Made by a program: the position numbers and the translations under genes. Source: Flavobacteriales bacterium (GTDB lineage Bacteria; Bacteroidota; Bacteroidia; Flavobacteriales; UBA7430). Taken from it: a stretch of 41,311 bases of DNA. A model generated the notes under the pieces. That model was not told the origin of the DNA. It made no database searches and was given only the letters and a program-made list of their open reading frames with translations. The DNA is taken from contig JAKMFX010000009.1 of assembly GCA_022425195.1 (NCBI GenBank), positions 1 to 41,311 of the forward strand, read 5' to 3'. Below, piece by piece: positions 37,036 to 41,171 of the stretch. Positions within the stretch are counted from its first letter, which is position 1. Each line of letters begins with the position of its first letter.

Positions 37036-40000
37036 ATGGAAAAGCAGCTCAAAAACATCAAGAAATTATTGGTTGCCAACAGAGGTGAGATTGCGATACG
37101 GGTCATGCGTGCTGGAACAGAACTAAAAATTAGAACTGTTGCGATATATACCTACGAAGATCGTTATTCATTACACCGCTACAAAGCTGATGAAGCCTAC
37201 CAAATTGGTCCTGATGAGGAACCTCTGAAACCCTATCTTGATATTGAGGAGATTATTAAGCTTGCCAAAAAAGTAGGTGCTGATGCCATTCACCCAGGAT
37301 ACGGTTTCTTGTCTGAAAACGTAAACTTCGTGAGAAGATGTCAAGAAGAAGACATCATCTTTGTAGGTCCAGAACCTGAGGTTATGGATCGATTGGGCGA
37401 TAAAGTAAGTGCCAAAAAAATTGCACGTGCCTGTGAGGTTCCATTGATTGAAGACAATCAAAAGGAATTGAGTGACATAAAGATCGTTAAAGCCGAAGCC
37501 AAACGTATTGGTTTCCCTGTAATGATCAAAGCCGTTGCCGGTGGTGGTGGTCGTGGTATGCGCGTGGTTCGTCATGCCGATGAATTGGAACTACTTTTCA
37601 ATGAAGCCAAAGGAGAAGCCCTTCGTGCTTTCGGTGATGGCACCATGTTTATGGAGAAATTTGTGGACCGACCAAAACACATAGAGGTTCAAATCATGGG
37701 AGACAACTACGGAAACCTCGTTCATTTATTTGAGCGAGACTGTTCTGTTCAACGTCGTTTCCAAAAAGTAGTGGAAGTAGCCCCTTGTGTATCTATTTCA
37801 GACACAACAAAAAACAATCTCTATCAATATGCCCTTCGCATAGCGAAACATGTAAATTACAATAACGTAGGTACCGTAGAATTCTTGGTCGATCTAGATG
37901 AAAATATTTACTTCATTGAAGTGAATCCTAGAGTTCAAGTTGAACATACCATTACAGAAGAAGTTACAGGTGTTGACATCGTTCGCTCTCAAATACTGAT
38001 TGCAAACGGACATCAACTTAGTGACAGTTGCATATTTATTAACGGTCAAGAAGATGTCAAATGTCAAGGCTACGCGATTCAGTGTCGTGTAACTACTGAA
38101 GATCCTGAAAATGATTTCAAACCAGATTTCGGGAAAATTATTGCCTATAGAAATGCAGGTGGGTTTGGAATTCGATTGGACGAAGGAAGTTCCTACCCTG
38201 GTGTGAAAATATCTCCGTTCTTTGATTCTATGCTGGTAAAAGTTTCAGCAAAGGGAAGAACACTTTGGGGAGCTGCCGATAGGCTTTATAGAACTCTGCA
38301 AGAATTTAGAATACGTGGAGTAAAAACAAACATTGCCTTCCTGGAAAATGTAATCTCTCACGACGATTTCATCAAAGGAAAATGCACCGTAAACTTCATT
38401 CAAGAGCACGATGAACTTTTTGATTTCAAAAAACGTAAAGATCGTGGGACAAAACTTCTAAGATACCTATCTGAAGTAATTGTTAACGGGAACCCTGACG
38501 TCAAACAAATCGATCGAAGTAAAAAATTCATTTTACCTACCGTTCCTGATTTTGATCAATTTCAAGCAGCTCCTGCGGGAACCAAGCAAATGCTTGATAA
38601 ACTTGGTCCAGATCAATTCAGCCAATGGTTGAAAAACGAAAAGAAAGTACATTATACGGATACCACTTTCAGAGATGCACATCAGTCTCTTTTGGCAACA
38701 AGAATGCGAACTTTCGATATGCTAAATGTGGCTGAAAGTTTCTCAAAAAACGTCCCTGAAGTATTCTCCATGGAAGTCTGGGGTGGAGCCACCTTTGATG
38801 TTGCCATGCGCTTCTTGAAGGAATGTCCATGGACACGCCTAGAGCATTTGAGGAAATCCATACCAAACGTTTTGCTACAAATGTTAATTCGTGGATCTAA
38901 TGGTGTGGGATACAAAGCATACCCAGACAACTTAGTTGAACGATTCATTGCAGAGGCAGGTGCCAAAGGAATTGACGTATTCAGAATCTTTGACTCACTC
39001 AACTGGCTTGAGGGAATGAAGACCAGTATTAAAGCTGTTAAAGAGCAAACCAACTCTCTAGCTGAAGTTTGTGTATGCTACACGGGCGACATTCACAATC
39101 CAAACGAAAATAAATACACCCTAAACTACTATGTAGATTTGGCGCGTCGTATTGAAGACGAAGGTGCTCATATATTAGCCATCAAAGACATGGCTGGACT
39201 ATTGAAGCCCTACGCTGCAACTGAGCTGATCAGCACACTGAAAGAAAATGTGAACATCCCAATTCACTTACACACGCACGACACTTCAGGTTTACAATTG
39301 GCTACCTATTTAAAAGCTGTTGAAGCTGGAGTAGATGTAGTCGATCTGGCCGTTAGCTCCATGTCAGGTCTTACCTCACAACCGAGTTTCAACTCCATGT
39401 TAGCGATGATGGAAGGTCATGAGAGAGAAAACAAATTGAATCTTAAAAGCTTGAATTCCTACTCCAACTACTGGGAAGGAGTTCGAGAGTACTACTATCC
39501 GTTCGAGTCGGGATTAAAAGCAAGTACTGCTGAAGTATTTGATCATGAAATCCCAGGAGGACAGTATTCTAATTTACGTCCACAAGCAAATGCACTTGGA
39601 CTGGAAGAGCAATTTGAAACCGTTAAGGAAAACTACGCTACGGTTAACGAAATGTTCGGTAACATTGTTAAGGTAACACCTTCTTCAAAAGTAGTTGGAG
39701 ATATGGCCTTATTCATGACCTCAAACGGCTTGAGTAAGGAAGATGTTTTGACCAATGGAAAAGAGCTGTCATACCCAGATTCCGTAATCAACTTCTTCAA
39801 AGGAGACTTAGGTCAACCAGAAGGTGGTTTCCCTAAGGAACTTCAAAAGCAAATCCTGAAAGGTGAAACTCCTATAGAAGGTCGTCCTAACGTTCACTTA
39901 GAACCAGTTGACTTTGAAAAAGGATTCAAAGACTTCAAACGTAAATTTGATAAGGACAGCTCGTTCACAGATTTCATTTCTCAACAATTCTATCCTAAAG

Positions 40001-40496: not shown

Positions 40497-40865
40497 TCAG
40501 TCAGATAGATTGATTTCAACCAAGCCTTTGTAATTTATAAAGGACTCTTGTCCTTTTCTTGGCTCGGCCATCATATCATTAGCGTCGGCAACTCCGACGC
40601 CCGCATACAAAAGGCGCGCTTTCTTTTCGAGAGCGTGCTTTTTCATTTTCTGCATCCACCCTGCATCATATTTACTCGGGTCTTCAGGGAAAGTGACCGT
40701 ACGTACCAATACGAAAAAAACCACCTTCTCATCTTTAATACAAACAAATTGAGGTGAGTTCCCCAATTCGCTTTTGATCGCAAGGAATTCAAAACCATTC
40801 TCTTCGAGATGCTTCCCAACTACTTTCATTCCCATCTGATGTAATTCTTGTCGCTTCAATTCCAT
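40497..40865 (-). CDS. Conserved hypothetical protein
   Basis: A 122-residue soluble protein. The pattern GKHLEENGFEFLAIKSELGNSP then QFVCIKDEKVVFFVLVR suggests a beta-sheet core preceded by a helix, somewhat like a PD-(D/E)xK-type fold, but I see no catalytic triad. Similar short proteins in Bacteroidota have been labelled NqrF in databases, probably wrongly, since no flavin or iron-sulfur motif is present here. A -7 element lies 4 nt from the ATG. It is convergent with pyc, 2 nt apart. Confidence 0.72.
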   Translation of the reverse strand: MELKRQELHQMGMKVVGKHLEENGFEFLAIKSELGNSPQFVCIKDEKVVFFVLVRTVTFPEDPSKYDAGWMQKMKKHALEKKARLLYAGVGVADANDMMAEPRKGQESFINYKGLVEINLSD

Positions 40866-40869
40866 AATT

Positions 40870-40877
40870 CAAATTTA
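40870..40877 (-). promoter_or_regulatory. -7 element abutting the start of the 40865 gene
   Basis: On the minus strand TAAATTTG matches TAnnTTTG and is 4 nt from the ATG, predicting a leaderless message. No good -33 TTTG at standard spacing. Confidence 0.5.
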
Positions 40878-40977
40878 TACAAAAAAATGTCCTGAAATTA
40901 AGAAGAGCTCAAGTTTATAGTAGGAGATGGGATTAAGTCGATTCGCTCTTGCTCCCTATAACTTCTGAATAAGACCT

Positions 40978-41096
40978 CATTAAAATGAAGACCGCTATGC
41001 TCTTTTTTTTGAATCTACCCTTAATCTTGAGCAAGCTCTATTTAAAATTAAATTCAAAAAAAAACCAGTCCAAAAGGACTGGTCTTCATTTTAATG
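40978..41096. repeat. 16-bp inverted repeat next to tRNA-His
   Basis: CATTAAAATGAAGACC at 40978-40993 recurs exactly inverted at 41081-41096. The right copy begins directly at the tRNA-His 3' end and overlaps the tRNA terminator stem by 3 nt; the left copy is 87 nt away. A 16-bp match in such a short span is very unlikely by chance. Could be the scar of a rearrangement or element insertion, or a long RNA hairpin. Confidence 0.8.
41056..41083 (-). terminator. Terminator of tRNA-His
   Basis: On the minus strand ACCAGTCC-TTTT-GGACTGGT (41083-41064) is followed by a T run (A run 41056-41063), placed 13 nt after the tRNA. Confidence 0.88.
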
Positions 41097-41171
41097 GGTG
41101 GATGATGGGATTCGAACCCACGACCCCCGGCACCACAAACCAGTGCTCTAACCAACTGAGCTACAACCACC
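41097..41171 (-). tRNA. tRNA-His (GTG)
   Basis: Minus strand. Acceptor GTGGTTG (41170-41164), D arm GCTC...GAGC, anticodon loop TTGTGGT with GTG, T arm GTGGG-TTCGAAT-CCCAT, acceptor 3' CATCCAC. G at 41171 (G-1) pairs with discriminator C at 41097, the His-tRNA identity mark. CCA is not encoded. The acceptor stem has a U-U mismatch at pair 5:68, and the anticodon stem has two G-U pairs. Confidence 0.95.

Follow-up and report, generated by a model that had tools for sequence, protein, structure and literature searches.

Why should a perfect 16-bp inverted repeat begin exactly at the 3' end of a tRNA-His gene? The original prediction offered three possible answers, namely the scar of an inserted element, a local inversion-duplication and a long RNA hairpin, and each of these may be weighed against the flanks of the same tRNA in related genomes. 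The repeat lies in a 41,311-nt stretch of Flavobacteriales DNA (the window), which is the whole of contig C18 of a 1.77-Mb genome (G000; 48 contigs, 99% complete). Genes at this locus follow the order pyruvate carboxylase (PYC, plus strand), a 122-aa protein gene (minus), the palindrome and tRNA-His (minus). Our analysis leads to a local duplication, in inverse orientation, of the sequence immediately beyond the tRNA-His 3' end, via fold-back or template switch, as the favored reading, to which we assign a probability of about one half.

A quasi-palindrome at the tRNA-His 3' end

The elements of the locus to which the analysis refers (coordinates within the window, strand, description and basis) are as follows.

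41097-41171, minus strand: tRNA-His (anticodon GTG), with an encoded G at what we take to be position -1 and no encoded CCA (ARAGORN 41096-41170, Rfam 41097-41170)
40978-41096, minus strand: 119-nt quasi-palindrome (repeat scan, shuffles, fold, half-versus-half alignment)
41081-41096, minus strand: outer arm adjoining the tRNA, consisting of the trailer and the 5' start of the terminator stem (overlaps the terminator)
40978-40993, plus strand: distal outer arm, an apparent inverted copy that lacks the terminator hairpin (repeat scan, half alignment)
41060-41087, minus strand: predicted intrinsic terminator of tRNA-His, a stem-loop followed by a T run (consensus scan)
41003-41024, plus strand: inner arm A of the palindrome (inverted-repeat scan)
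41042-41063, plus strand: inner arm B of the palindrome (inverted-repeat scan)
41029-41038, no strand assigned: palindrome tip GAGCAAGCTC (sequence, fold)
40920-40934, minus strand: putative degraded copy of the 3' end of tRNA-His, AATCCCATCTCCTAC (alignment to the tRNA, weak by itself)
40881-40906, minus strand: candidate displaced old terminator, a decayed hairpin and T run (aligned with the terminator directly after tRNA-His of genome G006)
40870-40877, minus strand: promoter -7-like box TAAATTTG of the next gene (sequence; aligned with G006)
40497-40865, minus strand: conserved 122-aa protein, no Pfam family found (ORF, Pfam scan)

The repeat is real and lies where it had been reported, with arms at 40978-40993 and 41081-41096 that are complementary at 16 of 16 positions and separated by 87 nt. 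Two finer points of its description hold in part. If the gene is taken to end at 41097 (Rfam), the proximal arm directly abuts the tRNA, its first base being the one that follows the gene, while with the ARAGORN end (41096) this base is the last one of the gene. Likewise, the terminator, which had been placed within the 87-nt loop, is only partly contained in it, as its stem-loop (41060-41087) extends into the arm and shares 7 nt (41081-41087) with it. The suggested folding as a hairpin was borne out, with RNA fold z-scores of -7.6 on the minus strand and -8.7 on the plus strand.

A second, nested pair of arms (41003-41024 and 41042-41063; 22 nt, 82% complementary) flanks the tip at 41029-41038, and, since these inner arms and the tip lie on nearly the same axis as the outer arms, the segment 40978-41096 is a single 119-nt quasi-palindrome, of which the 16-bp repeat is the outer part. 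It shows a feature expected of such structures, i.e., two inversely oriented arms of significant similarity around a short spacer. When one half was compared with the reverse complement of the other, none of 500 shuffles reached the observed score, either in G000 or in a second carrier of the same genus (G002). The halves are collinear over approximately 60 nt, so that the trailer, the start of the terminator stem, the T run and the motif GAATCTA recur in inverse orientation; the terminator hairpin is present in the tRNA-side half and absent from the distal half. In the alignment of the two halves, perfect blocks are interspersed with unrelated ones.

This inverted repeat is not due to chance. 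It is the sole perfect one with arms of at least 14, a loop above 20 and a span of at most 250 in 438,558 bases of the genome (the window, contig C22 and 20 sampled stretches, of 1,766,271 in total), and 40 shuffles of the window yielded on average 0.05 repeats with arms of at least 14 and none with arms of at least 16. The search for further copies of the 16-mer found no third exact copy in the G000 genome; with 2 mismatches allowed, four further genomic sites appeared vs. two for a reversed control pattern. The palindrome showed no similarity signal to the outer part of the spacer in direct or inverted orientation, the score being equaled by 64 and 57 of 500 shuffles, nor did the tRNA when set against the outer spacer in inverse orientation (97 of 300).

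Some side observations concern the surroundings. The contig end (41179-41311) looks chimeric: contig C22 of the same genome shares its first 47 nt, from tRNA-His and its leader, with the window and continues into a metal-transporting ATPase gene, like G002, while the last 133 nt of the window represent a different upstream flank with another ATPase-like start, which has only short weak matches in the other 11 genomes of the family. The 122-aa protein is 64-90% identical in up to eight other family genomes with strong matches and 40-50% identical in eight genomes from other families of the order, and it matches the YraN-family and PRK14678 models only below threshold.

Distribution of the palindrome among relatives

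The order of pyruvate carboxylase, the 122-aa gene and tRNA-His is retained in two genomes of the same genus (G001 and G002), and the 122-aa orthologue adjoins tRNA-His in G001, G002, G006 and G007, the latter two representing another genus of the same family; in G008 the two genes are on separate contigs. The tRNA itself is identical at 75 of 75 positions in G002 and G008. The spacer between tRNA-His and the 122-aa gene varies in length, from 231 nt in G000 and 205 nt in G001 to 58 nt in G006 and G007.

The palindrome is far less widespread. Among 395 genomes of the order, only 2 gave a full-length DNA match, while in 21 others the match was confined to approximately 20-45 nt. The second carrier, G002, has a 120-nt version identical at 116 of 119 aligned positions, with one gap. 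Comparison of tRNA-His 3' flanks, which had been proposed as a check, showed that such arms do not normally accompany tRNA-His: a perfect repeat of at least 12 with a loop above 20 is present in 2 of 31 flanks, the other 29 having at most 10, in a sample biased to close relatives (the 30 loci returned, best first, from 104 genomes with a match among 119 searched, plus G001, itself one of the 104; one flank spans only 30 nt). A perfect short-loop hairpin of at least 8 bp within 60 nt of tRNA-His is present in 24 of the 31 flanks, including those of both carriers. An assembly artefact, against which the original prediction had cautioned, is unlikely because the same structure occurs in the separate assembly of a different species. 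Neither blastn nor a covariance model built from the two sequences found a second copy in the three genomes of the genus, and the palindrome therefore does not appear to be a repeat family.

The third member of the genus, G001, has an ordinary terminator and no palindrome, and its spacer does not align significantly with those of the carriers (the score was equaled by 53 of 300 shuffles for G000 and by 40 of 300 for G002). Pairwise identities in PYC and the 122-aa gene place G001 no further from G002 than G000, and the joint presence of the palindrome in G000 and G002 would therefore mean replacement in G001 or exchange. In addition, the 3' part of G001 tRNA-His is unlike that of G000 and G002, with the 5' part and leader shared, and this tRNA is identical over 75 nt to that of G066, a genome from another family. 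Such identity would fit an exchange at tRNA-His, convergence of the tRNA sequence being a possible alternative. Finally, G006 is devoid of the palindrome and aligns with the G000/G002 spacer only at its gene-proximal end.

A probable inverted duplication and competing explanations

According to the favored reading, a fold-back or template switch during replication, pivoting on the short palindrome GAGC..GCTC, would have copied the trailer, the start of the terminator stem, the T run and the following bases in inverse orientation. The tRNA-proximal arm would have remained a working intrinsic terminator, while the distal copy would have lost its hairpin and then drifted. This event would have arisen in, or reached, the G000 and G002 lineages within a spacer that is longer than its counterpart in G006 and G007. 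We infer the copying mechanism, its direction and timing, as well as the working of the terminator; directly observed are the palindrome and its position, the terminator-like hairpin of the tRNA-side arm, and the occurrence in two species but in none of the other relatives examined. Each of the three substitutions between G000 and G002 within the palindrome makes the G000 version less palindromic, and there is no double compensatory change among them, which is the pattern that drift would produce. The replication template-switch mechanism is documented in general terms (PMC8794818), and its events are described in the same source as able to create RNA hairpins. The locus resembles quasipalindromes produced in this way in having an inverted copy beside its source, shared perfect blocks and a short palindrome that would serve as the pivot; it differs in the alternation of perfect blocks with unrelated ones and in offering no ancestral sequence for locating the switch points. 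Likewise, it resembles an ordinary intrinsic (Rho-independent) tRNA terminator in that a stem-loop and T run directly follow tRNA-His, but here the trailer and stem start are repeated inversely 87 nt away.

Several observations speak against a duplication. The alternation of perfect and unrelated blocks is not predicted by even decay through point mutations, and the termination of one arm exactly at the tRNA boundary is left unexplained. The 96% identity of the spacer vs. 80-86% for the genes would not be predicted for a neutral relic unless the block was recently exchanged, and the palindrome-free sequences appear to align too poorly to reconstruct the event or map switch points. Of the alternatives named in the original prediction, the local inversion-duplication stands as the best-supported reading, whereas the element scar finds partial support. 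Attachment-site scars are direct repeats, and the inverted repeat is therefore not itself such a scar; nevertheless, a separate weak direct-repeat-like remnant (40920-40934), a terminator-like segment and a promoter do suggest an insertion.

This insertion may be envisaged as follows: an integrative element would have inserted at the 3' end of tRNA-His and rebuilt the tRNA from the 3' end that it carried itself. It would have supplied a new terminator together with the palindrome (as element DNA or formed within the element) and would later have been deleted to approximately 175 bp, so that the original tRNA 3' end and old terminator would persist, decayed, beside the next gene. We regard this history as a tentative possibility, to be held with less than even odds. 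It is suggested by G006 and G007, where tRNA-His, terminator, promoter and gene follow one another with a spacer of 58 nt, and where the G006 tRNA 3' part, terminator and promoter are collinear with the gene-proximal spacer end of G000 and G002. With G006 as a template, none of 13,202 genomic windows matched the score of G002 (68) or G000 (61), the best reaching 58, and none of the 125 windows with both a T run and TAnnTTTG (the Bacteroidetes promoter box) scored as well. Shuffles equaled the score in 0 (G002) and 1 (G000) of 1000 cases. When the alignment was cut before the T run, leaving out the promoter as well, 7 (G002) and 36 (G000) of 13,202 windows did as well; with G008 as a template, the full alignment was equaled by 0 (G002) and 3 (G000) of 13,202 windows. 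The tRNA-His of G001, which has a different 3' part and equals that of G066 over its 75 nt, is a further possible sign of exchange at the tRNA. Genes for tRNAs are described as integration sites, with displaced fragments marking the ends of islands (PMC4383910). Relative to such attL/attR scars, the locus likewise has extra DNA directly beyond an intact tRNA and, ahead of the old flank, what may be a displaced piece of the tRNA 3' end, but the fragment is short and decayed, there is no integrase and no element, and the inverted repeat is not an attachment site.

The remnant at 40920-40934 is matched by 2 of 300 shuffles (1 of 300 for the G002 version), but the tRNA-like part alone is weak, with 180 (G000) and 71 (G002) of 6658 windows as good, and fairly high scores were also obtained with the reversed and reverse-complement controls (equaled by 16 and 9 of 1000 shuffles). 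The 5' half of the tRNA is not recognizable in the spacer, and G001 is without such a remnant, the scores there being equaled by 779 and 604 of 1000 shuffles. When the 12 family genomes were searched with the terminal 20 nt of tRNA-His, allowing up to 2 mismatches, none gave a second near-copy; 8 have one match and 4 none. Survival of a dead terminator is also unexpected, since terminators at the tRNA-His locus differ completely between genera. No tyrosine-recombinase match occurs on contigs C18 or C22, the three in the genome being on contigs C8, C24 and C30, and no integrase or element was found between the repeats, where the only frame above 40 aa to overlap the spacer, besides the 122-aa gene, is one of 70 aa; this absence is, however, also expected of a deleted element. 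The decayed segments that resemble a tRNA 3' end and an old terminator provide a moderate hint of DNA inserted at the tRNA 3' end. A full tandem pseudo-tRNA was considered and rejected: its 5' 40 nt are unrecognizable (183 and 945 of 1000 shuffles as good for G002 and G000, respectively), while the whole 78-nt segment is matched by 0 of 1000 shuffles and 9 of 9684 windows in G002, and by 20 of 1000 shuffles and 193 of 9684 windows in G000.

An unlikely but distinct explanation treats the palindrome as a functional structured RNA, with a 16-17 bp closing helix, the terminator hairpin and a long inner hairpin meeting in a three-way junction, made by read-through of tRNA-His or from the other strand, e.g., as a stable trailer product or a two-way terminator. 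What calls for it is the spacer, identical at 222 of 231 positions between G000 and G002 (96.1%, 2 gaps), vs. 80-86% DNA identity in the four neighboring genes (122-aa gene 83.5%, PYC 86.1%, thioredoxin-like 84.3%, metal ATPase, on C22 in G000, 80.0%), 40-52% change at their fourfold sites, and 74% and 82% identity in two other spacers. Folds are very stable on both strands, and two of the three substitutions retain pairing as G-U; any inverted repeat folds, however, and none of the 47 pairs, in a comparison of only two sequences, carries a double compensatory change. No Rfam family apart from tRNA reaches the cut-off, the palindrome is absent from G001 despite the closeness of that genome to G002 in two genes, and the outer 112 nt of the spacer are nearly as conserved (106 of 112) yet without a fold signal (z 0.55).

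High identity is, moreover, not unique to this spacer. In a control of 13.2 kb aligned within a 20-kb stretch, four spacers show 71-74% identity, yet an identity of 0.96 is attained in 6 of 510 windows of 231 nt, five of them around an rpsU-like gene and one before tRNA-Thr. Beside rpmB-like, rpsU-like and tRNA-Thr genes, 94-97% identity is also seen in four stretches of 52-100 nt that are mostly noncoding (one of these includes 29 nt of a gene end, and gene names reflect our reading of the frames). Along the locus itself, identity is at least 0.93 in 43 of 286 windows of 60 nt, and the longest such runs cover the tRNA with the spacer and the start of PYC, which is also unusually alike in G000 and G002. 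Of the 39 fourfold sites within the initial 300 nt of this gene (37036-37335), 7 are changed (18%) vs. 28-65% in the other ten blocks, a pattern that hints at block exchange or constraint at the 5' end. Given such identity elsewhere and at the PYC start, promoter constraint or block exchange can explain that of the spacer; these comparisons are compatible with selection as well as with constraint on promoters and with short blocks having been exchanged recently. On the tRNA strand, any RNA past the terminator would need read-through, whereupon the 5' strand of the terminator stem could pair with either the terminator 3' strand or the distal arm. That the latter pairing forms a three-way junction protecting or regulating tRNA-His trailer products, with selection keeping the 231-nt spacer 96% identical, strikes us as improbable. 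The terminator is the only likely function indicated, and the repeat probably has no dedicated function beyond it.

Insertion of a miniature inverted-repeat transposable element (MITE) at the tRNA 3' end would account for perfect terminal inverted repeats of 16-17 bp in an AT-rich segment of 119-120 nt, but we consider it highly improbable. There is no second copy in the three genus genomes, no other paired 16-mer (up to 2 mismatches) in its own genome and no full-length match in the other 393 of the 395 genomes of the order; by eye, no target-site duplication is seen at the ends, and one arm carries the terminator stem. The 16-mer does occur in eight viral-contig stretches, each time once and in unlike surroundings. 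A multi-copy repeat is disfavored by the same lack of a second copy.

Other candidates were also tried and rejected. A viral origin found no support in the eight stretches with a single 16-mer and unlike surroundings, nor in the 23-nt tRNA-His 3' end present in two viral contigs, within tRNA clusters unlike this locus; one of these two contigs has a 405-aa frame that looks integrase-like by eye. No relative of the 122-aa protein was confirmed among 156 candidate stretches of viral contigs. Phage records matched in 1118 cases, and among the 20 listed all hit only query positions 218-309, i.e., the tRNA and up to 14 nt of 3' flank. A retron-like RNA, considered for its arm architecture, was set aside with no reverse transcriptase among the six window proteins scanned against Pfam, as was a small protein, the 70-aa plus-strand frame that runs antisense into the tRNA and is broken in G002.

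Evolution of the tRNA-His flank

Overall, the repeat at the tRNA-His 3' end is part of a lineage-specific quasi-palindrome, which is best read as an inverted duplication of the tRNA terminator region, possibly within what is left of an insertion at the 3' end of the tRNA. Our comparisons suggest that the tRNA-His 3' flank, as well as the 3' part of the tRNA in G001, has been replaced between close relatives. While it otherwise looks like ordinary local genome evolution rather than a new system, the locus offers a clear case, shared by two species, in which a long quasi-palindrome incorporates a tRNA terminator, and it may serve in studies of the remodeling of tRNA 3' flanks by insertions and inverted duplications.
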